From Mya arenaria (lineage: Eukaryota; Mollusca; Bivalvia; Myida; Myidae), in NCBI RefSeq assembly GCF_026914265.1, contig NC_069132.1, positions 34,838,932 through 34,902,931 of the forward strand: a DNA stretch of 64,000 nt, in the 5' to 3' direction. Every line of letters starts with the position of its first letter. The first letter of the stretch is position 1. The notes beneath the pieces are model-generated. The model saw nothing but the letters and a program-made list of their open reading frames with translations. It did no database searches and was not told the DNA's origin. A program made the position numbers and the translations under genes. Shown here one piece after another: positions 11,332 to 61,500 of the stretch.

Positions 11332-14300
11332 ATGTCAGAAATTGACGATTTAGATGTACAACAAAGATTAAAGAATGCATTAAGAAGAAGCAAGTACCAT
11401 TTTCTACCACCTTATCGATTATATGATTTAAATTACAATGACTAAAATTGTTTAAAGTTTAAACATAGTTTCTTAATCTTAGTTTGTGCCTAAAGTGGTT
11501 ATTGTGCCTCTCTAACTTAATAATTAGATGACATGAAGTAACATTTTAATGATAAAGAATGGGCGGAGTTAGCGAGGCTTCAGGTCATCCAATTGTCATA
11601 GAATACTACCTCATTGGCTGACACATTGTCAACGCAAGTATGATACAGTGTGTATCGGATGAGTGACAGTAGGCGGACCTTTAAATACACGCAAAAGTTG
11701 AAACTCTTAATGATTAAACTTAGTACTTAATGATTGCCTATCTGCAATTTTATTGGCTTAAAATGTAGGTTGCTTTCTTACATACACGATCATATTGAAA
11801 TGTAAACAATGACATTGTTTTGGACTACAGTAAAATTCATGCAATCCTAAGTCAGTTTTGTCTTTCATATTGTATTTGCAGGTCGATTAACAACTTTAAA
11901 GTCCATCCTGTATTTAACTGAACCGGTTGGTAATCTAGGGGCAGAAGATATTCAAACTATTAAGATTGCAGCTGCTAAAAAACTGAGTGTTTTGAAACCT
12001 GTAACAGGTAAAGGAAGTGTTTTTATAAAGTATTTGTTTACACTTTACATGTTATTACTTTTTGTTATGAAGTTAAAAGTTAATTCATCAAATCTTGTGT
12101 CTCAAATACATGTACATAATGATGTACATGACAAAAAAAGAGCAACCAGGAAACAATCTGTTTTATCAGCTTACTGGTTAGTAAAATGCATGGCCATTTA
12201 AAAACTGTGAAACATTGACCAGTGAACTGATACAAATATGAGATAATGTAAAAATAATTGTGCTTATTGTTGTGAAAAGACATCAAATTATTTCATGTCT
12301 ACAAGTTCAATGTGTAATTTCGCAAATGGCTTTCAGACTCTTCTGAAGATTTTGCATGATCTTGTATCTATATGTACATGTACAAGTGCCTGTCATGTTT
12401 TGCAACCTCTCTTTTATTTCATATTTTGAATGCTGCAGCTAATATATTTCTGAGACAATGCGATTCAACAAACATTTTTAAGGACTGCCACAAGAAATTA
12501 GGAACGTGAAGTTTTTATGTAAGGTAACTTTTTTCTCCTTTCTTTCAGCTCTAGAATTACACAAGTCTCCAAGGGAAAATCAAAGACTTACAACTGGATG
12601 TGGTGTGCTTGATCAAGCATTGAGAGGTTATTTTGTACTTAAGGGTTTTTAGCTTGTCTGTTTTTGTGTCCTCGGGATTGTTGTTGTCATGCAAAACCTT
12701 TATTGTGTAGCAGGACCTTAATTCTTGCTTTGATAATTGTACAGTTAAACCTGTTGTTAGACTAAAATAAACAAGGCATCTGCTCAAGCTGCTATTGCTT
12801 TTTGAATGACATGTTCGATCTTAATCTCATACTTTTTCATCATTCAGTCATAAGTCAATTGGCTGTTTTACCATACTGAGTAATTTACTGAGTAATTTGA
12901 AATTCATGCAAGAAATATTTTAACTTATACTGTACATTTTAGCTTGCTTAAGTCAGGATGAATTCCATACATAATTGTTCTTAATAAAGATTAATATATG
13001 TCATCCCCTACCAGTTTCAAAATAGATTTACCCTCCATCCATCCCTCTGTGTTTGTCCAGAAAAACTGGATGTTACCATAACTCAAAAAGTATGAGCTAG
13101 GTGAATTCAACTTGGTATGTAGATAGAGGGCTAAAAGGTAATTAATCTGGAAAAAAAATGGAAAGGAAATTTGAAACAGCATTATTTTCACTATGGCAAC
13201 AGTAGGCATAGTGGACTATCATATTATATTGCTAGCAATAAGCTGCGTTCTTGTTACTTCTATATTTGATATTGCCAGTCAATATTTTGACACATAAATT
13301 AACTTTTAATCACTGATACTTCTCAGGTGGTCTCCTGTGCAGGGGTATTACAGAGATATCTGGAGAGAGCTCTAGTGGGAAGACCCAGTTTGCTCTGCAG
13401 CTCTCACTCACAGCACAACTGGCTCCACTTTATGGGGGCCTTGATGCAGGTTTGTTCATGTATATTTATCCCTCTGGTAAAAGGGTCTCCTGTGCCTGGG
13501 TATTACAGAGATATCTAAAGAGAGTGTTAGTGGGAATACCCAGTTTGCTCTTTAGCTCTCACTTGCTGTTCAACTGGCTCCATTTTATGGGGGTTTAAAT
13601 GCAGGTCTGTTAATTTATGTAAGACTCGCTGACATAGTGCTGTGCTGGGGAGTTTAAGAAAATATGCATTAGCCTAAAGAAAAATAAATCTTTGAAAGTT
13701 AGACATTTCCTACTGGCTTGATAACAATTTTACAGTTTTACTATTATCATTATCTACACTATGTCTTGATAGAAAATAAGTTTAAAGCATGCAATCATTA
13801 ATAGTTTATTTTTATTAACAAAATATTGGTACATTTTTTTGTACGTTCCACCAGGAGCAGCCCCTGACCCAAGGTAACAAAAATGTAAATGAGGAAATAT
13901 AAAGCCTTAGCTGAGGTCTTAAAAATATTTTTCATATGTATTTCAAACTTATGATAAATCATATCGTCTACTCCAGGTACACTGTACATCTGCACCGAGG
14001 ATGCCTTTCCAAGCAAGAGGCTGTATCAGATGATCGAGAACTTCACAAGCCGGCATGGGAAGAAGCTGTGTACCCATGGTAACCTAGGGGACAAGATCTT
14101 CATAGAGCATGTGCCAGACTTTGTATGTTGTTCTTTGAAATATTTTACTATTAATTGGCATGAGACTAAAGATTGATTGAGTCCACCCTCTGTAATTAAC
14201 ATGTTTGTTTTACAGAAATAATCCATGAATTTAACTTGAGCTCTTGAGAATTTGTTTATAGAGGGCTCTTACATGTTTGCTTTGGTTCAAAAGTGAGAAA

Positions 14301-17300
14301 TATTCCAATCGTGGCGGCTCCATGTCATGTTTCCTTATAGTATGTTGATATGTTTGATGTTATTTCAAAAACAACATGTTGTTCAGATATTTAAAGTTTC
14401 CATTCAAAAGTCATGTTAATGTTAATTTATTTGAGCAGTCGACCAAAATGGACCTAGGACAAATTCTGAATATTTAACTATTACTGTTCAATCGTTGTAG
14501 ACCATAATAATACATTGTAGTACTACTATTATTTTGGTCTACAGTCTTTGACAAGTTTTATTTATATTCAGGATTTCTCCAAGATCCGTTTGGATAGACT
14601 GTGCTAACATCTCTTAAATCTGGGCTAGCACTCTGACACCTTTTAATTGCCACAAAACATGTCTTATTCTGGCACAGAAATTGTATTTCAACCCACAAAG
14701 CTCCAGTGTTTTATTTCATTTTACTTCAGGATAGCTTGATGCACTGTTTAACCCACAAAGCTCCAGTGTTTTATTACATTGTTTATAATAATTCAGGATA
14801 GCTTGATGCACTGTTTAACCCACAAAGCTCCAGCCTTAAATTACATTGTTTATAATAATTCAGGATAGCTTGATGCACTGTTTAACCCACAAAGCTCCAG
14901 TGTTTTATTACATTGTTAATAATAATTCAGGATAGCTTGATGCACTGTTTAACCCACAAAGCTCCAGTGTTTAATTACATTGATTATAATAATTCAGGAT
15001 AGCTTGATGCACTGTTTAACCCACAAAGCTCCAGTGTTTTATTACATTGTTTATAATAATTCTGGATAGCTTGATGCACTGTTTAACCCACAAAGCTCCA
15101 GTGTTAAATTACATTGTTTATAATAATTCAGGATAGCTTGATGCACTGTTTAACCCACAAAGCTCCAGTGTTTAATTACATTGTTTATAATAATTCAGGA
15201 TAGCTTGATGCACTGTTTCACCCGCAAAGCTCCAGTGTTTTATTACATTGTTTATAATAATTCAGGATAGCTTGATGCACTGTTTAACCCGCAAAGCTCC
15301 AGTGTTTAATTACATTGTTTATAATAATTCAGGATAGCTTGATGCACTGTTTAACCCGCAAAGCTCCAGTGTTTTATTACATTGTTTATAATAATTCTGG
15401 ATAGCTTGATGCACTGTTTAACCCGCAAAGCTCCAGTGTTTTATTACATTGTTTATAATAATTCAGGATAGCTTGATGCACTGTTTAACCCGCAAAGCTC
15501 CAGTGTTTTATTACATTGTTTATAATAATTCAGGATTGCTTGATGCACTGTTTAACCCACAAAGCTCCAGTGTTTTATTACATTGTTTATAATAATTCAG
15601 GATAGCTTGATGCACTGTTTAACCCACAAAGCTCCAGTGTTTTATTACATTGTTTATAATAATTCTGGATAGCTTGATGCACTGTTTAACCCACAAAGCT
15701 CCAGTGTTTTATTTCATTGTTTATAAAAATTCTGGATAGCTTGATGCACTGTTTAACCCACAAAGCTCCAGTGTTTAATTACATTGTTTAAAATAATTCA
15801 GGATAGCTTGATGCACTGTTTAACCCACAAAGCTCCAGTGTTTTATTACATTGTTTAAAATAATTCAGGATAGCTTGATGCACTGTTTAACCCACAAAGC
15901 TCCAGTGTTTTATTACATTGTTTATAATAATTCAGGATAGCTTGATGCACTGTTTAACCCACAAAGCTCCAGCGTTAAATTACATTGTTTATAATAATTC
16001 AGGATAGCTTGATGCACTGTTTAACCCACAAAGCTCCAGTGTTTTATTACATTGTTAATAATAATTCAGGATAGCTTGATGCACTGTTTAACCCACAAAG
16101 CTCCAGTGTTTTATTACATTGTTTATAATAATTCTGGATAGCTTGATGCACTGTTTAACCCACAAAGCTCCAGTATTTAATTACATTGTTTATAATAATT
16201 CAGGATAGCTTGATGCACTGTTTAACCCACAAAGCTCCAGTGTTTTATTTCATTGTTTATAATAATTCTGGATAGCTTGATGCACTGTTTAACCCACAAA
16301 GCTCCAGTGTTTTATTACATTGTTTATAATAATTCAGGATAGCTTGATGCACTGTTTAACCCACAAAGCTCCAGTGTTTAATTACATTGTTTATAATAAT
16401 TCAGGATAGCTTGATGCACTGTTTAACCCGCAAAGCTCCAGTGTTTAATTACATTGTTTATAATAATTCAGGATAGCTTGATGCACTGTTTCACCCGCAA
16501 AGCTCCAGTGTTTTATTACATTGTTTATAATAATTCAGGATAGCTTGATGCACTGTTTAACCCGCAAACCTCCAGTATTTTATTACATTGTTTATAATAA
16601 TTCAGGATAGCTTGATGCACTGTTTAACCCGCAAACCTCCAGTGTTTTATTACATTGTTTATAATAATTCAGGATAGCTTGATGCACTGTTTAACCCGCA
16701 AACCTCCAGTGTTTTATTACATTGTTTATAATAATTCAGGATAGCTTGATGCACTGTTTAACCCACAAAGCTCCAGTGTTTTATTACATTGTTTATAATA
16801 ATTCAGGATAGCATGATGCACTGTTTAACCCACAAAGCTCCAGTGTTTTATTACATTGTTTATAATAATTCAGGATAGCATGATGCACTGTTTAACCCAC
16901 AAAGCTCCAGTGTTTTATTACATTGTTTATAATAATTCAGGATAGCATGATGCACTGTTTAACCCACAAAGCTCCAGTGTTTTATTACATCGTTTATAAT
17001 AATTCTGGATAGCTTGATGCACTGTTTAACCCACAAAGCTCCAGTGTTTAATTACATTGTTTAAAATAATTCAGGATAGCTTGATGCACTGTTTAACCCA
17101 CAAAGCTCCAGTGTTTTATTACATTGTTTATAATAATTCAGGATAGCTTGATGCACTGTTTAACCCACAAAGCTCCAGTGTTTTATTACATTGTTTATAA
17201 TAATTCAGGATAGCTTGATGCACTGTTTAACCCACAAAGCTCCTGTGTTTAATTCATTGTTTATAATAATTCAGGATAGCTTGATGCACTGTTTAACCCA

Positions 17301-19769
17301 CAAAGCTCCAGTGTTTTATTACATTGTTTATAATAATTCAGGATAGCTTGATGCACTGTTTAACCCACAAAGCTCCAGTGTTTTATTACATTGTTTATAA
17401 TAATTCTGGATAGCTTGATGCACTGTTTAACCCACAACGCTCCAGTGTTTTATTACATTGTTTATAATAATTCAGGATAGCTTGATGCACTGTTTAACCC
17501 ACAAAGCTCCAATGTTTTATTACATTGTTTATAATAATTCAGGATAGCTTGATGCACTGTTTAACCCACAAAGCTCCAGTGTTTTATTACATTGTTTATA
17601 ATAATTCAGGATAGCTTGATGCACTGTTTAACCCATAAAGCTCCAGCGTTAAATTACATTGTTTATAATAATTCAGGATAGCTTGATGCACTGTTTAACC
17701 CATAAAGCTCCAGCGTTAAATTACATTGTTTATAATAATTCAGGATAGCTTGATGCACTGTTTAACCCACAAAGCTCCAGTGTTTTATTACATTGTTTAT
17801 AATAATTCTGGATAGCTTGATGCACTGTTTAACCCACAAAGCTCCAGTGTTTAATTACATTGTTTATAATAATTCTGGATAGCTTGATGCACTGTTTAAC
17901 CCACAAAGCTCCAGTGTTTTATTACATTGTTTATAATAATTCTGGATAGCTTGATGCACTGTTTAACCCACAAAGCTCTAGTGTTTAATTACATTGTTTA
18001 TAATAATTCTGGATAGCTTGATGCACTGTTTAACCCACAAAACTCCAGTGTTTTATTACATTGTTTATAATAATTCAGGATGGCTTGATGCACTGTTTAA
18101 CACACAAAGCTCCAGTGTTTTATTACATTGTTTATAATTCTGGATAACTTGATGCACTGCTTAACACACAAAGCTCCAGTGTTTTATGACATTGTTAATA
18201 ATTCAGGATAGCTTGATGCACTGTTTAACCCACAAAGCTCCAGTGTTTTATTACATTGTTTATAATAATTCTGGATAACTTGATGCACTGTTTAACCCAC
18301 AAAGCTCCAGTGTTTTATTACATTGTTTATAATTCTGGATAACTTGATGCACTGCTTAACACACAAAGCTCCAGTGTTTTATTACATTGTTTATAATTCA
18401 AGATATCTTGATGCACTGCTTAATCCACAAAGCTCCAGTGTTTAATGACATTGTTACTAATTCAGGATAGTTTGATGCACTGCTTAACCCACAAAGCTCC
18501 AGTGTTTTATTACATTGTTTAGACTTCAGGATAGCTTGATGCACGGCTTAATCCACAAAGCTCTAGTGTTTTTTTATATTGTTTATAATTCTGGATAGCT
18601 TGATGCACTGCTTAACCTACAATGCTCCAGTGGTTTTTCATATTGTTTATAATTCAGGATAGCTTGATGCACTGCTTAACCCACAAAGCTCCAGTGTTGC
18701 TGAAATCTGGGGCCATCAAGTTGATTGTGGTTGACTCTATAGCGGCCCATTTCCGTAGTGACTATGAGGGGCACGAGATGTACAAGCGGGCCCAGCACAT
18801 CGGGGCTCTTGGTACCCTGCTTTACACTCACAGTCATGAATACAACATTCCTGTTGTCTGTATTAACCAGGTAAGAGATATAGCTGACACATTCATATGA
18901 AAATTATGAAATTAAATTGAGAGTCGACTGTAAAATTGTTGTAACTATCTAAATTTATAGGACTAATTACAGTCCTGCTGGTACCCCTTTTTTTGTGAAC
19001 TCACATCTTTGCAAGCTGATGACAACTCTTGTATGTTTTTTTCAGTCATGTGGCATAACTCCTTAACAATTTTTGGATTGTTACACATGTGCATGTTGTC
19101 ACTTGTAACATGTATATTTTGTTTCATGATAATAGACTGGTTTTTGAAACAGACGCCAACACCAAGGCTATCAAAATACCATCACCAAACAGACATGCTT
19201 AATATCTATGTGTATAAATGTTCAGAATTTATAGTGTACATAAAAAGGCTAGGGATAAGTTCATCAAACAGAAACTATAGGAATCTTTATTGAAGATTTT
19301 ACCAGAGATTTTCCAAGGGGCGGACACAAATAAATCTGCATTGTTCTTCAAAAAAAAAATCACCTTTTATCAGTATTTATGATAATTGATTTCTTGATTA
19401 CAGGAAAGGTTTTCTTTCCATAACTTATAGTTACAGATATATACTAAAAAGGCTTGTCCCTGTGGTGTTTTTGTATCTTCTTCATAAATGAAACTAATAC
19501 TACCGTAATACTTCAACCCTTAGGTGACCAGTTCCATGAAACCTGAAGGTCGTCAGCTGATCCCCTCCCTGGGGCTGTCCTGGTCAAGCCAGGTGACCAC
19601 ACGCATCATGCTGACCCGGACTGACCGCTCACTGACCATCCAGCAGGAAAGTGCCCGTGGCCCCTTGGAAACCGTTGTCAGGGAGATGGAGATAGTTTAC
19701 GCCCCACACCTACCTCCGTTGACTGTGCCTTATGTTATTGACCATGAGGGCATGAAAGGATTTGCGTGA
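11332..19769 (+). CDS. XRCC3: XRCC3, RAD51-paralogue recombination protein, complete (329 codons)
   Basis: Seven exons join in phase: 11332-11389, 11882-12007, 12549-12626, 13327-13449, 13977-14122, 18658-18870 and 19524-19769 (stop TGA); total 990 bases. The protein is a RecA/RAD51-fold ATPase. The N-terminal helical region (DDLDVQQRLKNALRRSRL) aligns with human XRCC3. Exon 4 gives Walker A (GESSSGKT), exon 5 the YICTEDAFPSKRL motif, and exon 6 Walker B (LIVVDSIAAHFR) and VVCINQV. Exon 7 gives SLGLSWSSQVTTRIML and the family C-terminus APHLPP. Human XRCC3 has 346 residues. XRCC3 forms the CX3 complex with RAD51C and acts in homologous recombination in the nucleus. Intron 1 uses a GC donor. 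Exon 4 is followed by a decayed copy of itself, and intron 5 is almost filled by copies of the exon 6 acceptor region. Polyadenylation-type AATAAA motifs occur near 20,725. Confidence 0.96.
11390..11391 (+). other. XRCC3: non-canonical GC splice donor, XRCC3 intron 1
   Basis: The junction reads AGAA|GCAAGTA, a match to the GC-AG donor consensus. Only this donor leaves phase 1, which is what exon 2 (acceptor at 11882) needs to read RLTTLKSILYLTEP. Using the GT two bases downstream puts a stop into exon 2. Confidence 0.8.
13483..13604 (+). pseudogene. decayed duplicate of XRCC3 exon 4
   Basis: Thirty-three bases after exon 4 the exon is repeated almost end to end, including its donor-side GCAGGT. 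In the exon frame it reads GITEISKESVSGNTQFAL, then a stop, then LSLAVQLAPFYGGLNAG. Relative to exon 4 the Walker A lysine is changed (GKT to GNT), so it could not make an active ATP site even if included. The real exon carries no such changes. This is a tandem exon duplication that has decayed. Confidence 0.9.
14692..18657 (+). repeat. 67-base satellite made of the XRCC3 intron 5 / exon 6 junction, about 59 copies
   Basis: The unit contains an intronic tail (ATTGTTTATAATAATTCAG) followed by bases identical or nearly identical to the first ~40 bases of exon 6 (starting GATAGCTTGATGCAC). The last copy, at 18658, is the real exon, which runs on into LLKSGAIKLIVVD. Most units are 67 bases and differ at a few sites. 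Units to the right of ~18,120 are shorter (about 57-62 bases) and more diverged, and several share GCACTGCTTAA with the real exon, whereas the bulk reads GCACTGTTTAA. A transcript spliced to any decoy would meet a stop early in the next unit because 67 is not a multiple of three. Confidence 0.95.
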
Positions 19770-24258: not shown

Positions 24259-44307
<20,049 letters not shown>

Positions 44308-45596: not shown

Positions 45597-48500
45597 ATGA
45601 GTTCGCTGTCCAGTGAGCTAGATGAGGATTCTACGTATTCGCCCACCCTGTTCACCCCGCCCCCACTGGCTCCAGTCCCCCCTCCTCCACCTTTCTCCCG
45701 CACACATTATCACACAACCACAAATGGCATACAAACAGATGTCAACAACTCAGCCATCAGCTGTGAACCTGAAGCAGAAGGGCAAAGGGCCTATACATAT
45801 GCTTGCAGTGCTATACCGTTAGTATATTATATACACATTTGTAACCAATAAGTCTTATAAAGAATATAGTAAAATGGTATACACCCTGTTATTCTAAGGC
45901 CAAAATATTTTCCTCATCTTGTACTTAACAAATAAATGAATGATTAAACAATAAAAGTTTTTACTATATAATAAGAACAAATAATGTTTAAGTTGTTACT
46001 CTATAATAAGTATATATTCATATTCATTTATAGCAATACCATACATGTAATTTTATAAAGTCAGTTTTAAATTGATGATTATTAGGCTGTCTGAACATTG
46101 TGTCAAACCTGCCTTCCAACTTTTTTCCATTTTATTTCAGAGACAATTTAGAAAACTATGTTTGTGTTTCGTATCAAAGGAAAGTGGAACCTATTATTCA
46201 AAGTGGACCACAGTAAGAACCTAGCTGAACATTGAAAACTCTTTATCTATTATGAAAAATGCATAAATACCGTAATTCAGTGAAGTATGCAAAAAAATCC
46301 ATAACAACAGAAAAAACGCATGTAAGAATATAAGAACCAAAGCCAGTGACAAAATTTACAAAAACCCACTAGTATATTTAGCCAAATAATGAAATATGAC
46401 CCTAACATAATTTCTTGCAAAGTCAAACATGCCCAAAATGTATAACTAAATCTACATGTGCTAAATTAAAACAATGAAATTGTAGTTATATATATATTTG
46501 TATCAAACATACAATGTTTCTGTTTGTGTAGATGTGGTCTGGTTGCTCTGGCGATGGGGGAATCCATTCTGCAGCGGGAGGTGAGCCTTGACCAACTGAC
46601 CACCATCAGTCAGGCCCAGGGCTTCTCCAAGCAGGGGGAAATGTTCTCAGGTATAACATGTAGTTTATTGAAGCATAAGGGGTCATTGTGTGTGTCTAAA
46701 ATGTAAAATTATATCATACTTGGTACAATATATTCTGAAAAAAACGCACAATATTACATAAATTACTGACAAGGTTAAAAAGCCCAAACAATACCAGATG
46801 GGTAGAGCACATTTAGTTTTTAGCTCCACTGGCCGAAGGCCATGGAGCTTATGTCGTCACAGATTGTCCGTCGTGAGTGCGTGCGTGCGTGCGACATCTC
46901 CTCTGAAACTGATAAGCGGATTTTGACAAAACTTCACAGGAATGTTCCTTTGGTGGTCCTTTACCAAAATTGCTCAAATGGTTCCGGTCCATTGCACAAT
47001 ATGGCCGCCAGAGCTAAAAATAGCAAAATCTTTAAACGACATCTCCTCTGAAACGGTTCGGCAGATTTTGATGAAACTTGACAGTAATGTTCCTTGGGTG
47101 GTCCTTTATTAAAATTGCTCAAATGGTTCTGGTCCATTGCACAAAATGGCCGCCACAGCTAAAAATAGCAAAATCTTTAAACGACATCTCCTCTGAAACG
47201 GATAGGCAGATTTTGATGAAACTTGACAGAATTGTTCCTTGGGTGGTCCTTAACCAAAATTGCTCAAATGGTTCCGGTCCGCTGCACAACATGGCTGCCA
47301 GGGCAAAAAAATAGAAAAACCTTTAAAGAACATCTTCTCAGAAACCGATGATCAGATTTTGATGAAACTTAAAAGAAATGTTCCTTGGATGGTCCTTTAC
47401 CAAAATTGCTCAAATGGTTCCGGTCCATTGCACAATATGGCCGCCAGAGCTAAAAATAGCAAAATCTTTAAACGACATCTCCTCTGAAACGGTTCGGCAG
47501 ATTTTGATGAAACTTGACAGTAATGTTCCTTGGGTGGTCCTTTATTAAAATTGCTCAAATAGTTCTGGTCCATTGCACAATATGGCCGCCACAGCTAAAA
47601 ATAGCAAAATCTTTAAACGACATCTCCTCTGAAACGGATAGGCAGATTTTGATGAAACTTGACAGAATTGTTCCTTGGGTGGTCCTTAACCAAAATTGCT
47701 CAAATGGTTCCGGTCCGCTGCACAACATGGCTGCCAGGGCAAAAAAATAGAAAAACCTTTAAAGAACATCTTCTCAGAAACCGATGATCAGATTTTGATG
47801 AAACTTAACAGAAATGTTCCTTGGATGGTCCTTTACCAAAATTGCTCAAATGGTTCCGGTCCATTGCACAATATGGCCGCCAGAGCTAAAAATAGCAAAA
47901 TCTTTAAACGACATCTCCTCTGAAACGGTTCGGCAGATTTTGATGAAACTTGACAGTAATGTTCCTTGGGTGGTCCTTTATTAAAATTGCTCAAATGGTT
48001 CTGGTCCATTGCACAATATGGCCGCCACAGCTAAAAATAGCAAAATCTTTAAACGACATCTCCTCTGAAACGGATAGGCAGATTTTGATGAAACTTGACA
48101 GAATTGTTCCTTGGGTGGTCCTTAACCAAAATTGCTCAAATGGTTCCGGTCCGCTGCACAACATGGCTGGCAGGGCAAAAAAATAGAAAAACCTTTAAAG
48201 AACATCTTCTCAGAAACCGATGATCAGATTTTGATGAAACTTAACAGAAATGTTCCTTGGATGGTCCTTTACCAAAATTGCTCAAATGGTTCCGGTCCAT
48301 TGCACAATATGGCCGCCAGAGCTAAAAATAGCAAAATCTTTAAACGACATCTCCTCTGAAACGGTTCGGCAGATTTTGATGAAACTTGACAGTAATGTTC
48401 CTTGGGTGGTCCTTTATTAAAATTGCTCAAATGGTTCTGGTCCATTGCACAATATGGCCGCCACAGCTAAAAATAGCAAAATCTTTAAACGACATCTCCT

Positions 48501-51274
48501 CTGAAACGGATAGGCAGATTTTGATGAAACTTGACAGAATTGTTCCTTGGGTGGTCCTTAACCAAAATTGCTCAAATGGTTCCGGTCCGCTGCACAACAT
48601 GGCTGCCAGGGCAAAAAAATAGAAAAACCTTTAAAGAACATCTTCTCAGAAACCGATGATCAGATTTTGATGAAACTTAATAGAAATGTTCCTTGGATGG
48701 TCCTTTACCAAAATTGCTCAAATGGTTCCGGTCCATTGCACAATATGGCCGCCAGAGCTAAAAATAGCAAAATCTTTAAACGACATCTCCTCTGAAACGG
48801 TTCGGCAGATTTTGATGAAACTTGACAGTAATGTTCCTTGGGTGGTCCTTTATTAAAATTGCTCAAATGGTTCTGGTCCATTGCACAATATGGCCGCCAC
48901 AGCTAAAAATAGCAAAATCTTTAAACGACATCTCCTCTGAAACGGATAGGCAGATTTTGATGAAACTTGACAGAATTGTTCCTTGGGTGGTCCTTAACCA
49001 AAGTTGCTCAAATGGTTCCGGTCCGCTGCACAACATGGCTGGCAGGGCAAAAAAATAGAAAAACCTTTAAAGAACATCTTCTCAGAAACCGATGATCAGA
49101 TTTTGATGAAACTTAACAGAAATGTTCCTTGGATGGTCATTAACCAAAATTTGTTAAATGGTTCCAGTCCACTGCACACCATGGCTGCCAGAGCTAAAAA
49201 ATAAAAAAAACTTTATACGACTTGTCGTCGAAACCGATGACCTTTTTTCGATAAAACTTGACAGAAATGTTTGTTTGGTGCTCCTTTACTCAAATTGCCC
49301 AAATCATTTCGGTCCACTGCACAACATGGCAGCCAGAGCTATTAAAGTAAAAAAATTTTTTAAATAACTTCTCCTCAAAAATTGATGATTGTATTTCTAT
49401 GAAACTTGACGAAAATGTTCGTTAGGTGGTCTTTGCTTGAACCTTTTGGCCAGTGGAGCACAGGCATTGATGTGCCTCTTGTTGTCAAGTTTATGTGACA
49501 TTACAAAACTAATCCTTACACAACTAAGTTCTCTGCTAAAGATGAATCAGTCAGCTTAGAAATTGTACAGCATAAAGCTGGTACAGTTGTTATGTCTTTG
49601 AAGAAGAAGCTCTCCAAGTTCAATGCCAAAGTCCCTGTCTTTTTCAAATGTGAAAAGAGTGTAGTATTCCGATTTTTTCTATGTGTCCCTGTTGTGTAAA
49701 TATAATTTGTGTCCAATTATAATACAGTTACAGTCGGTTTATACTATAATGCGCAATAGTGCATTACTTGAAAATTGACATCTGAAGTTTTTAATTCATA
49801 TTGCATGGAATTTTGCCTAATATCCAATTTTGATCTTTTAGAAGATCATGATTATTTTTCAGCAAACAATATGGAACAGTTGGCGCGACTTGCCTTCGGA
49901 TGTAAAACCTCGGTACTGGACATTCGCGATGTTAGTGGGAAATGGGAGTTTCTCAACTGTCTTGCCAGGGGCGACATTTTGTTGGTGCCGTATGACCCAG
50001 ACAAGAACTATGTTCCTGTATTAAAGAAGGGTCATAAGGCACATTGGGCAATTGTTACAGGCAAGTTTGTATTTAAACTTACACTTAAGATGTATTATAC
50101 TTGTATTTAAACTTACACTTAAGATGTATTATATTGTATTTGAATTTACACTTAAGATGTATTATACTTGTATTTAAATTTACACTTAAGATGTATTATA
50201 CTTGTATTTAAATTTACACTTAAGATGTATTATACTTGTATTTAAACTTACACTTAAGATGTATTATACTTGTATTTAAACTTACACTTAAGATGTATTA
50301 TACTTTTATTTAAACTTACACTTACGGTAAGATGTATTATACACATTTTTATTTTTTGTCTAAAACCTGTGGAATGACAACTTTGTCGCCAATTTATTGA
50401 ATATTGCAGATCTGTCATTACAAGTATACTTATAATACAAATAAATAATATCAAACGTTTTATGCAAAGACAGTTTGTATTTTATTAGAATTCAATTTGA
50501 TATTGTTTAAGTCTGTATTTCTTATTCTATTGCCACTTGTCAATAAAATGAAACTCCATGAATATAAACTTGTATAACTTGGTCCTCCAAGACTAAATTG
50601 GATCGATTGATTTCTTTGCTATCAGTACTGTTTGCAGTATCAGTTGGATGGTAACCAGAATAGAAGATTATCATTCAATTCATAATTAATGTCTTTCAGG
50701 CTTTTTTGCTGCAATCAGTGATGACCAGATCTTAACAAGACTGCAGACTGGCAGTGTTAAGAAGGACTCTGAATTCTCCAACCTATACCACTGCTCCATA
50801 CCGCCTCTTCCCTCCAACACCGGGCGTGTTCTGCCTGCAGAGCCCAACATAACCCCGCGGGCATTATCGGCCATTGTTCCAGCCCGTCCACAAGGTGCTG
50901 TTGTGTCTAATAGAGCCATATCGGCCCGGACTTTGCCTGCGGAGCCACCCAAACTTCATGGGAAGGAAAACACTAAGTTGTGTCACAGTGTGGGGAATCT
51001 TTCGTCTCAGAAAACAGCTGGCGCAGTGACTACCTCAAACTCAGCAGCCTGTAGAAATCCCCTAGAAGCCGCCTCGTACATTCTAGTGTATGCTAAACAA
51101 GGGAAAAGCAAATACACAGGAATCTGGAATGCCAAGACGTTAGTTGAAAGCTGTTGTAACTTGATCGAGATAGACCCACAGAGGCTCAGGGATGAAGAGA
51201 ACTATGCTTTTCCGGATAAAGGTATTGAAGAGGAACTGTGTGGGAAGGTTGTGGTTTTACACGTTAAGAAATGA
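45597..51274 (+). CDS. ACTMAP: ACTMAP, actin maturation protease (C19orf54 family), complete (394 codons)
   Basis: Five exons join in phase (1,185 bases): 45597-45817, 46141-46212, 46532-46650, 49863-50060 and 50700-51274. The family is a cysteine protease that removes the acetylated N-terminal residue from nascent actin in the cytoplasm. The catalytic Cys lies in SGPQCGLVALAMG, split across the exon 2/3 junction. The His lies in KKGHKAHWAIVTG, and QGFSKQGEMFS, LVPYDPDKN and VYAKQGKSKYTGIWN are further family blocks. The N-terminus is proline-rich (FTPPPLAPVPPPPPF), as in vertebrate orthologues, which are ~351 residues. The extra length is a low-complexity linker in exon 5 before AASYILVYAKQGKS. 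The ATG at 45597 is chosen because upstream bases look like an intron acceptor and the in-frame extension lacks an ATG. Intron 3 holds a satellite and intron 4 starts with a GC donor. Confidence 0.93.
46822..49486 (+). repeat. satellite with 436-base higher-order period in ACTMAP intron 3
   Basis: Monomers of ~145 bases (GACATCTCCTCTGAAAC ... GGTCCATTGCACAATATGGC) are arranged in threes, and three-monomer blocks repeat every 436 bases (equivalent points at 47078, 47514, 47950, 48386 and 48822). Blocks are almost identical, while the three monomers within a block differ. The array lies between AGCTCCACTGGCC at the left (46822) and TGGCCAGTGGAGCA at the right (49447-49460), which are inverted, so it is probably the core of a mobile element. 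Open frames of 66-78 codons inside are repeat artefacts. Confidence 0.9.
50061..50062 (+). other. ACTMAP: non-canonical GC splice donor, ACTMAP intron 4
   Basis: The junction is TTACAG|GCAAGTTT, a full match to the GC-AG donor consensus. Joining here to the acceptor before 50700 gives AIVTGFFAAISDD in frame. Use of the GT four bases on would create a stop in exon 5. Confidence 0.88.
50066..50340 (+). repeat. ~34-base tandem array just inside ACTMAP intron 4
   Basis: About eight copies of a unit with ATTTAAACTTACACTTAAG and ATGTATTATACTT start five bases after the GC donor. Units differ by one or two bases, and the last carries a small insertion (TTACGGTAAG). No exon sequence is included. Confidence 0.9.
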
Positions 51275-51448
51275 ACAATGCTTCAGAGTATTGGATCACG
51301 AAACCCATGTAAAGAAATGAACAATGAATCAGTGTAGCCAATCATGTTACCCATGCAAAGAAATGAACAATGATTCAGTGAAGCGAATCGCGTTACCCAT
51401 GTAAAGAAATGAAGAATGATTTAGGATAGTGACTCACATTATCCATGT
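51265..51448 (+). repeat. 46-base tandem array starting at the ACTMAP stop codon
   Basis: Four units begin at 51265, 51310, 51356 and 51402, each with AAGAAATGAACAATG or a variant followed by CCCATGT/CCCATGC. The first unit contains the last two ACTMAP codons (AAG AAA) and the stop TGA. The other three lie in the 3' untranslated region. Similarity falls towards the right. Confidence 0.85.
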
Positions 51449-55200: not shown

Positions 55201-56070
55201 AACAAGAAACGCCGCAATGCGACGAAACCAGGTTTTCAATGATTGACAGAAGAACTTCAGCCTTGTCTGTTTTTCTATTTTTTGTAACAGTGACCTTGAC
55301 CATAGGGACCCCAAACGCAATCACATGAAAGATATCCATAAACTCTTCCTTTATACCAAGTTTGGTCACGGTATGTGGACCCTAACTAAAGTTATTAAGT
55401 TGCAACCATTTTCTATTTTTAGTAACAGTGACCTTGATCTTGACTCTAGGGACCCCAAATGCATTCCCATGAAAGGTATCCATAAACTCTTCCTTTATAC
55501 CAAGTTTGGTCAAGATATGTCAACCCTAACTTAAGTTATTCAGTTTCAACCATTTTTCTATTTTTAGTAACAGTGACCTTGACCCTATGGACCCCAAACG
55601 CACTCCCATGAAAGATATCCATAAACTCTTCCTTTATACCAAGTTTGGTCTAGATATGTGGACCCTAACTAAAGTTATTCAGTTTCAACCGTTTTTCTGT
55701 TTTTAGTAATAGTGACCTTGACCTTGATCCTAGGGACCCCAAACGCAATCCCATGAAAGGTATCCATAAACTCTTCCTATAGACCAAGTTTGGTCAAGAT
55801 ATGTCAACCCTAACTAAAGTTATTCAGTTTCAACCGTTTTTCTGTTTTTACTAACAGTGACCTTGACCTTGACCCTAGGGACACCAAACGCAATCCCATG
55901 AAAGGTATCCATAAAATCTTTGTATAGACCAAGTTTGGTCAAGATATGTCAACTCTAACTGGAGATATTGTTTCATAGGTGAGTTTGACACCGCCCGGCC
56001 GCCCTGACGCCCGTCTGCCTGAACAATGACGTTTGTCATTCTAATAACTATGTGCAAACCTGGTTAAAAA
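55201..56070 (+). mobile_element. composite element with ~140-base tandem core
   Basis: Five units contain GTAACAGTGACCTTGACC (near 55287, 55423, 55567, 55706 and 55852), GGGACCCCAAACGCA, ATCCATAAACTCTTCCT and ACCAAGTTTGGTC. It starts near ACAAGAAACGCCGCAATGCG and AACCAGGTTTTC and ends with a GC-rich tail (CACCGCCCGGCCGCCCTGAC) and AACCTGGTT, an inverted match to the start. The core phrase is shared with the element at 30214-31081. Confidence 0.6.
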
Positions 56071-58588: not shown

Positions 58589-61500
58589 TCACTTGACAGC
58601 CTCGCTCATTTCAGAGTCCACAAAATTTTGCTCATCTTCAGAATTGGTTTTTATTGATCGAGGGATTTCAGCGGACATATTCTGTTTTTCATTCTCCCCA
58701 ATTTTCCCACGCTCATTCGCATCATTCTTTCCCAAAATTCCTGGCACTCTTTCAATACCTGCAATTTTTAACATTCGACTCTGAATACTATCACCTGATT
58801 CTTTGATAGGGTCCTGCTCTTTGGATCCCACAAACTCTTCCTCCTCTTCATCTTCCATTGGTTCCCACACTTTTGAAGTTTTCTCAGCCTTACCAGAACC
58901 CTCCCCCTTTGACCTTCTTCTTAACTTAGATCCATCCTCACTACGATGTCTATCTCTCTTCTCTCTCCTGCCTGACCTATGCCTATCTCTACTCCCCGAC
59001 CTATGTTTTCCCTTACTTCTAGACCTCGACCTAGAATGTCTCCTATCTCTTTCTCTAGGTTTCTCCCTGTGTTCCCCACTCTTGCTCCTAATCCTCTCTC
59101 CACTCCTGTCCTCCCTTTCCCCACTTCTATTCCCCCTCCCCCCACTCCTATCCTCCCTCCCTCCACTCTTATCCTCCCTTTCCCCACTCCTATCCCCTCT
59201 CCTCCCACTCCTATCCTCCCTCTCCCCACTCTTTTCCCCCCTCCCTCCACTCTTATCCTCCCTTTCCCCACTCCTATCCCCTCTTCCCCCACTCCTATCC
59301 TCCCTCACCACCTCCTCCTTACTCACATGCCTTCCCCTGATCCTTTCCTCCCTTTGTTTCTCCTTCATCCTCCTGTCCCGATCCCTTTGCTCCCTCTCTT
59401 TATCCCTCAATTCACGCTCACTAACACTCACCCCCTCCATCTCCTCCACCCCCTCTCCAGCCCCTTTCTCCCTGTTCTCCTTCCCATCTCTTTTCACCCC
59501 CTCCTCTCCCCCACTTTCCTCCTCTCCACTACCATCATCCTCCTCCTCATCGTCTTCATCATCGTCGTCTTCCCCTTCATCGTCTTTGTCACCTCCCACA
59601 TGGCTCATCATCTCATTGATCTCTTCTTCAAGTTTTTTGCGGCGGTTTTCTATCATAGCTGCAACATAGTGGAATGAATTTTATTGGTTATGAAAATATT
59701 TCATGATTGGATTACCGGTACTACACATTTGGTACTACAGGTTTATAAACCTATATAATTTTATGTGTAAACCAAGTCTCCTGCCAGATAGGCATGTACA
59801 TGTACAAGATGCAGCATTTAAATGTTTCATAAAAACAGAGTGAGACAAAATCAAACTACCCAAAATCAATCCCTCAATGTGACCTGAAAGTGGGCTGTAT
59901 TCAAAAAGCTTCTTAGATTAACCTTAACTTTAAGGATAGAGTTCAAGCGTTTTCAACTTTTCATAGGACAGTAAAATAAGTTTGCCATTAAACTGAATGG
60001 AATCACTTAGGCATGTCTAAGGACATGAACCTTATTGAATATGACTTAGGGAATACAAAGAACAATGAGTGAGTGCATTATTCTTACCATCAACAGCTGA
60101 CTTGGTGTCCTCCAGTTTAGATTCTGAATCTTCTGTAAGGATTTTGGGCATGTAAAACAAGCAGGGTTTGGCCTTAGTCAGGATAAAGTTCTGTAACTTC
60201 TTCGTTTCTCGCTCCCAGTTTTCATGCTGAAAATTTAAGTGAATAATCAAGTAATCTCATTTCTCGAAATGAGATTATTTGATTTTACTCCAGATTATAT
60301 GATAGGATAGATAATAAATGAATAAACATAACAGTTTTGCAGTTATTTAATTTTGAAAAAATAATAAGCAAGAGTGACTTTGTATAAGTTATCATAACTT
60401 ACTTCACAATCGTTGTAAAATATATAATGTTTAAACTAAGCATACAATCAAATTCAACCTACATTATGAACCATCTCCATCTTCTGTTCGATGGTACGAA
60501 TGCGGACTTGTTTGCGCCGCCTCTCCAGGAAGAGTTCTCTTCTCTCCTGAATTATCTCTTCTTTCTCCTGCAGGAATTTCTCCTCTAGCTTCTTCTCTAT
60601 CTTGACCCTCTGTTCTTCCTGAAAGCATCCAGCACAGGGTTTTAATTAATGATTACAGTGAAAATAAGACTTAAGAGTATTTTCAATTTCTATTTTTTTT
60701 TATTCTAAGTGTAATTTAATTTTGACACTCACCCATGAATTTGCAGAGCCAAAAAAAGAATTTCCTAATTTAAAGGACAGGCCAGGTTTGTTTTCCAATA
60801 TCAATTTAAAGGGTCAAAATTTGCCCCATGCGCAATTGATAGCCCTGCCTTGGGCTAATGGGCTCATGTTTTAAGGTCATATATATGTGTATAAAGTAGA
60901 TTGTATCATTTCTGAAGAATTTGATTTCCATAAAAAGGAAATTTGTAACAACGTCCTTTATTACCTTATCTTTAGATTCTTTCGACTCATCTTTGAACTT
61001 CTGAAGCGTTCCTAGTATCATGCCAAACATTCTTCTGTTTCTGTAATGAAAAATACAAAACTCATCAAGGTTCAAATTCATATTTTACATATAATTACCG
61101 GGTATGTTCTGTATCAGGATATAAACTAACAAGCTGGCATTCAAAGGAATGTTTACAAAAAGAAACTGAATCAGACAGTTATTGCAATTTTTTTTTCAGA
61201 AATTGAAATTATATCCCTCCTACATTTAAACAGATTTTATTAATAATTTCTATTCCATGTTTTGTTCCAACCATTTTAGGACAAGGGTTTGGGTCTTTCT
61301 GTTTGGAAAACAATTTATCATGTGTATTACTGGCATAATTTGGAATTCCTATTTTTCCTAAAAATGTAACAGGAATGATACAAGAAATTGACAGTGAAAG
61401 ACTGTCGTAACTTTTGTTCCTGTAAGAAAAACCTAAATCATTCCTCACCAAAACCTTTTCAGGATCTCAATTTCATGCAGTTATCTTTTTCAACTCTGAA

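Follow-up and report, generated by a model that had tools for sequence, protein, structure and literature searches.

Minisatellites whose units span an exon–intron boundary, termed mirages, have been described in amphioxus, where they occur in Adh3 and in the globin genes BflGb6 and BflGb9, with similar structures in other amphioxus genes; reverse transcription–polymerase chain reaction suggests that splicing is undisturbed there (PMC3087553, cited, like the other papers below, from excerpts). A donor-side counterpart in humans is the variable number tandem repeat (VNTR) in ABCA7 intron 18, with alternative forms exceeding the canonical one in some brain tissue (PMC5954066). Here we analyse a window of 64,000 nucleotides (nt) from the clam Mya arenaria (C11:34838932-34902931, in a genome of 1.216 Gb and 18 contigs), in which 59 copies of the intron 5/exon 6 boundary of the repair gene XRCC3 precede the real exon 6. 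The initial annotation of this stretch knew of no described case, but the amphioxus mirages have the same architecture (PMC3087553), and, judged by its units, the C11 array fits this class of exon–intron boundary minisatellites, known already in amphioxus. We consider it likely that the array is a mirage whose last copy is chosen by exon definition. This reading draws on the sequence, an edge shared with a sister gene, copy numbers, open frames and splice-site scores, from which we infer the choice of acceptor.

The XRCC3 array and its sister gene

In our hand gene model, XRCC3 on C11 has seven coding exons on the plus strand and an open frame of 329 amino acids (aa). The model protein is identical over 329 aa to P0002, 'XRCC3-like protein [Mya arenaria]'; its top three PDB matches are all XRCC3, and the Pfam Rad51 domain is present. 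Intron 5 occupies 14123-18657, its last 4 kb being the array. An upstream copy that joins the end of intron 5 to the opening 39 nt of exon 6 is called a decoy here, and decoys are numbered from left to right. The features are as follows.

11332..11389, plus strand: XRCC3 exon 1 of the hand gene model (protein as P0002), followed by the intron 1 GC donor GAA/GCAAGT
11882..12007, plus strand: XRCC3 exon 2 of the gene model
12549..12626, plus strand: XRCC3 exon 3, whose 26 residues are missing from isoform X2, P0003
13327..13449, plus strand: XRCC3 exon 4 of the gene model
13977..14122, plus strand: XRCC3 exon 5, with the weak donor TTT/GTATGT
14692..18657, plus strand: mirage array of 59 decoys (intron 5 end plus first 39 nt of exon 6), 42 of them with AG
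14692..14768, plus strand: left edge and decoy unit 1, common to the C16 paralogue, with an acceptor before 14730 that has the best score of the array
18143..18657, plus strand: exon-end decoys 52-59, 7 of 8 being of the 64-bp type and 5 of 8 lacking AG at the splice position
18658..18870, plus strand: real XRCC3 exon 6, 213 nt and in frame, with donor CAG/GTAAGA, the top-scoring of the gene's six donors
19524..19769, plus strand: XRCC3 exon 7 with the stop codon, of the gene model

Tandem Repeats Finder reported a single array at 14725-18698 with a period of 67, 59.7 copies and 95% matches. Anchoring on the exon start gave 60 copies at 14692-18698, that is 59 decoys and the real exon 6 as the last copy at 18658, in agreement with the initial annotation, which had derived the array from the exon 6 acceptor and put the decoys at about 59. 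Most units follow at an interval of 67 bp, one at 66 bp, and eight towards the exon, with the real exon counted, at 64 bp. Each unit crosses the exon–intron boundary, with 28 aligned intron columns terminating in TTCAG or a variant of it, and 39 exon columns; the exon-derived part is thus 39 nt (41 counting a shared TT). The 67-bp type accounts for 51 decoys. A 64-bp type, whose intron part is three bases shorter, accounts for seven more at the exon end, and unit 1, the remaining decoy, is a shorter copy. The array ends at the exon 6 acceptor without taking in the exon 5 donor at 14123, and so is not a donor array of the ABCA7 type.

AG is kept at −2/−1 in 42 of the 59 decoys, and the other 17 carry TG (16) or AA (unit 56, with an AG one base later). 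In 13 of the 16 TG units, GATAG a few bases downstream gives a further AG, and TG acceptors occur in human genes, as far as the excerpted source goes only as alternatives no more than 28 nt from an AG acceptor (PMC2374985). TG decoys are therefore not strictly excluded from use. The picture of some 60 nearly equal acceptors thus holds for the number of copies, but only poorly for their quality: 42 decoys keep AG, and their scores are unequal.

Every decoy start leads to a stop, after 18-45 codons across the 59 and after 23 codons in 45 of them, which bears out the expectation that use of a decoy would truncate the protein. All these stops precede the stretch LIVVDS, which we take to be the Walker B motif of XRCC3.

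The decoys comprise 40 distinct sequences. Inner units are homogenised, neighbours among units 2-50 differing on average at 2.2 of 67 positions, and the edge units are divergent, with unit 1 and most of units 52-59 standing apart. No run of four identical units was found at any lag from 5 to 39, as a higher-order repeat would give; mean unit distance was lowest at lag 1, with slight dips at lags 17-19 and 25-26. Older, degenerate units to the left of the array were looked for and rejected, the alignment score there falling within those of shuffled sequence (52/300 at or above the observed score).

A DNA search of the clam's own genome with 201 bases of the array gave at least 30 matches, all at the C11 locus or at C16:13960992-13961486. 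The second locus is a complete XRCC3 copy with seven exons, identical in length to those of C11, and is open over 329 aa; its annotated product, P0004 (294 aa), is 35 residues short within exons 3 and 4 and differs there from our hand model. A protein search of the genome returned 15 matches, namely XRCC3 exons and exon 4 copies at both loci and one weak match on C17. The C16 array has seven decoys, six with AG at −2/−1, followed by the real exon, which starts at C16:13961446. Its left-edge junction is the same as that on C11, and unit 1 differs between the two at 2 positions, which indicates an array older than the XRCC3 gene duplication. The minisatellite would have been seeded when the intron 5/exon 6 boundary was duplicated in tandem in an ancestor of Mya arenaria, before XRCC3 itself was duplicated to C11 and C16.

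Copy number differs greatly between the paralogues (59 vs 7 decoys), and aligned intron positions differ at 5-12%. The coding sequences differ at 21 of 987 positions, 10 nonsynonymous and 11 synonymous, with a nonsynonymous divergence (dN) of 0.013-0.015 and a synonymous divergence (dS) of 0.038-0.049. Nonsynonymous differences are fewer than expected under neutrality (binomial p 0.004 against a neutral nonsynonymous share of 0.765, our own estimate), which indicates that, averaged over the two lineages, the coding sequence was constrained while both genes carried decoys.

Two further features of the paralogues were seen. XRCC3 intron 1 (11389-11390) has a GC donor in the C11 copy and a GT donor at the equivalent place in the C16 copy; a GT donor for exon 1 was tried on C11 and rejected as it broke the frame, which the GC donor restores. 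Intron 4 of both genes holds a decayed tandem copy of exon 4, interrupted by a stop (13481-13621 and C16:13959923-13960066), a second exon duplication within XRCC3.

Choice of the last acceptor

Acceptors and donors were scored with weight matrices that were not trained on Mya arenaria. The real exon 6 acceptor of C11 scored 4.67 bits, the lowest of the gene's six (the others were 5.77-13.27). Most C11 decoys with AG scored 2.29, while decoys 1, 57 and 58 reached 9.72, 5.03 and 6.05. On C16 the real acceptor scored 7.10 and decoys 1, 3 and 5 scored 9.72, 7.38 and 7.63. Hence in each gene three decoys outscore the real acceptor. A direct comparison, with no matrix involved, shows the aligned intron parts of C16 decoy 5 and of the real site to be alike at all positions but one. 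The suggestion that a stronger pyrimidine run marks the last copy found no support here, as decoys 57, 58 and 1 score higher and the real C16 site has no such run. Scoring every unit, which had been proposed as a check, thus gave a divided answer: the bulk of the 67-bp units fall below the real site, but decoy 1 lies far above it.

A branch-point motif, yTnAy, was present at −18 to −24 in 9 of the 12 sites compared, including both real sites. In both genes the motif of decoy 1 lies no farther out than −17, and in C16 decoy 3 it is absent from −43 to −9, so that branch-point placement may weaken these decoys despite their scores. As a discriminator of the real site the motif was rejected, since seven decoys carry it as well. 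With decoys outscoring the real site and branch-point motifs common among them, acceptor strength is not the mark of the last copy. Folding of the RNA to hide decoys, tried on units 31-35, gave no signal (z +0.88).

The donors present a different picture. The exon 6 donor is the best of six in both genes (11.3 bits on C11, 9.7 bits on C16). Of 224 GTs in the C11 array the best scores 1.2 (at 18630) and the others −0.1 or less, and the best of 27 in the C16 array scores 0.4. No good donor follows the 39 exonic nt of any decoy, and the last copy would win because it alone opens a complete exon, closed after 213 nt by a strong donor. On this account splicing would mostly ignore the decoys, the acceptor being chosen through exon definition, by the exon body and nearness to the exon 6 donor and not by the acceptor motif. 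A role for sequence further inside the exon, the other way of rescuing the last copy raised in the initial annotation, is our best inference. Consistent with it, in the Mya proteins P0002 and P0003 and in P0004, the product of C16, it is the last copy that is used. The array itself probably has no function and is a tolerated by-product.

Beta-globin constructs with duplicated 3' splice sites were reportedly made by Reed and Maniatis in 1986. In constructs of this kind, a proximal acceptor copy with 14, 55 or 205 nt of exon gave exclusively distal splicing (PMC5389562).

Several points weigh against exon definition as the explanation. The beta-globin copy with 205 nt also lost, so the distal choice there was independent of exon length; moreover, the efficiency of splicing was very low, and two acceptors occupied at once inhibited it (PMC5389562). 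The exon 5 donor scores only 0.8 in both clam genes and the C16 exon 1 donor −0.1; the best GT of the array (1.2) is therefore no worse than donors that are used, and a low score is no bar to use. If no GT of the array closed a decoy exon, the exon 6 donor would have to be used; decoys 58 and 57 on C11 would then head exons of 341 and 405 nt, which could still be defined, with longer exons for decoys further left, and C16 decoys 6 and 5 would likewise give exons of 341 and 405 nt; decoys 57 and 58 (C11) and 5 and 6 (C16) score near or above the real site. Finally, use of the last copy is known from annotated proteins, and the annotation may rest on protein homology.

An alternative that we regard as rather unlikely is that the array is costly, with a sizeable share of C11 transcripts using decoys, leading to a stop and decay, or skipping exon 6, and with C16 supplying most XRCC3. 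All 59 decoys lead to stops, and exon 6, at 213 nt, is a multiple of three, so that in-frame skipping would remove the Walker B region. The C16 gene, with its seven decoys, is open, and the C11 real acceptor, lowest of six, follows a weak exon 5 donor. Precedents come from human ABCA7, where a longer donor-containing VNTR goes along with reduced expression and with more frequent skipping of the exon that follows (PMC5954066), and from the inhibition of splicing in vitro by double acceptor occupancy (PMC5389562). However, the C11 frame is open and the exon 6 splice sites are intact. In addition, the three Mya proteins among the matches listed (best 120 of 136) include no decoy-spliced or exon-6-less product, although this is weak evidence.

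We consider it highly improbable that the decoys are regulated poison acceptors, their use acting as a switch to lower XRCC3. Retention of the array in both paralogues would fit such a role, as would decoy 1, which is the top acceptor of both arrays and has an intron part identical between the genes. A switch is hard to reconcile with copy numbers of 59 and 7, with loss of AG in 17 of 59 decoys, and with an exon part that looks unconstrained: compared with the real exon, the decoys carry 38 nonsynonymous and 61 synonymous codon differences, 52 of the latter being one shared TGC/TGT. We also give little credence to an assembly artefact in the array or its length. The array is long, its units are alike and its copy number comes from one assembly; but the 59 decoys include 40 distinct sequences, a separate short array exists on C16, and the clam assembly, presumably the genome used here, is described as PacBio FALCON-Unzip (PMC10663159). 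Exon definition acting on a mirage remains our preferred explanation.

Growth of the array, selection on decoys and other repeats

The C16 array suggests how the C11 array grew. Unit 2 is the only unit of 67-bp type on C16 and is one base away from C11 unit 23; beyond units 1 and 2 the C16 array is of the 64-bp type. Because the amplified type matches C16 unit 2 and the leftmost unit is also old, growth was internal: to judge from these unit types, a single 67-bp type from the left-hand interior expanded in C11, with older types remaining on either side. This amplification, to 51 of the 59 decoys, would have come later than the seeding of the array. The initial annotation was right that the units at the exon end are older, as they are of the 64-bp type that also forms most of the C16 array. 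Its proposal of expansion outward from the exon is not supported: the counterpart of the amplified 67-bp type on C16 is unit 2, at the end away from the exon, and the leftmost unit is itself old. Array growth is ordinary satellite behaviour.

Sequence seems to pass between the decoys and the coding start of exon 6, in one direction or the other. On C16, decoy 6 is the unit most similar to the start of the real exon (3 differences); at two neighbouring positions both depart from C11 in the same way, and one of these changes replaces Leu184 by Ile. Faster change of this coding start between the paralogues was considered and rejected: 3 of the first 39 nt of exon 6 have changed compared to 18 of the remaining 948 coding positions (p 0.046), and within exon 6 the comparison is 3/39 against 3/174 (p 0.076).

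The amplification of a weak acceptor type and the frequent loss of AG suggest selection on decoys. AG is lost in 9 of the last 13 decoys and 8 of the 46 others (Fisher p 0.0007), a cut chosen after looking; the last 5, 8 and 10 decoys gave p 0.14, 0.037 and 0.026. Selection is only suggested, because the units derive from each other and the pattern is absent on C16, where AG is intact in 6 of 7. The −2 column is joint most variable of the 67, changed in 16 of 58 inner decoys in 11 runs, and column 4 equals it (16, in 13 runs). A broader proposal, which we put forward only tentatively and think doubtful, is that splicing filters the growth of satellites inside genes. Only a weak acceptor unit, the 67-bp type with AG intact and a poor pyrimidine tract, would have been able to amplify, AG would be lost preferentially, most strongly near the exon, and array turnover, through exchange of the exon 6 coding start with decoys, would write amino-acid changes such as L184I of the C16 gene into a repair protein.

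The window holds other tandem repeats. A 34-bp array of 7.6 copies (50060-50324) begins no more than 10 bases after a likely GC donor, ACAG/GCAAGT (read by eye), of a gene in which Pfam recognises an ACTMAP-like (actin maturation protease) domain. An array of four 46-bp units (51266-51448) starts in the apparent last codons and stop (AAG AAA TGA) of the open frame at 50690-51274, which perhaps belongs to the ACTMAP-like gene, and repeats the stop-codon region into the 3' flank in a mirage-like manner. At 59093-59306 a 21/42-bp array lies inside a minus-strand open frame of 363 codons (58589-59680), rich in Arg, Glu, Ser and Gly and without a Pfam match; it is probably a repeat in coding sequence. 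Finally, a 2.4-kb array at 46892-49341 has nested periods of 145, 291 and 436 bp, and further 145-bp arrays occur at 30400-31004 and 55269-55960.

Comparison with known systems

In the excerpts cited, the minisatellite unit of BflGb6 consists, like that of the clam, of an intron 3' end and the 5' part of an exon, and amphioxus mirages also have many but not all units keeping splice signals, and edge units that escape homogenisation (PMC3087553). In the clam splice signals are kept in 42/59 decoys on C11 and 6/7 on C16. The two systems differ in scale, the clam genes having 59 and 7 decoys compared to 6 and 3 units in the two BflGb6 haplotypes (PMC3087553), and the clam array is common to two paralogues.

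The ABCA7 VNTR is likewise a tandem array that contains an authentic splice site, with up to about 427 units, and the site of its second unit is sometimes used (retaining one unit) alongside canonical splicing (PMC5954066). Unlike the clam array, it involves a donor and lies downstream of its exon, and the excerpts describe a 25-bp intronic unit without mention of coding bases. The beta-globin constructs resemble the clam genes in having acceptor copies with shortened exons upstream of a full exon and in using the distal site, but they are engineered and have two copies (PMC5389562).

No mollusc mirage was found in our literature searches, in which the word 'mirage' itself was not a search term; within that scope, the clam adds a bivalve to mirages found described only in amphioxus. 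What remains notable about the clam case is its scale of 59 decoys, the pairing of paralogues with 59 and 7, and an age before the gene duplication. It is a natural counterpart of the beta-globin duplicated-acceptor experiment, enlarged 59-fold in one gene and 7-fold in its sister, and would offer a direct test of exon definition against acceptor strength, and of how large an array can be tolerated inside a gene.

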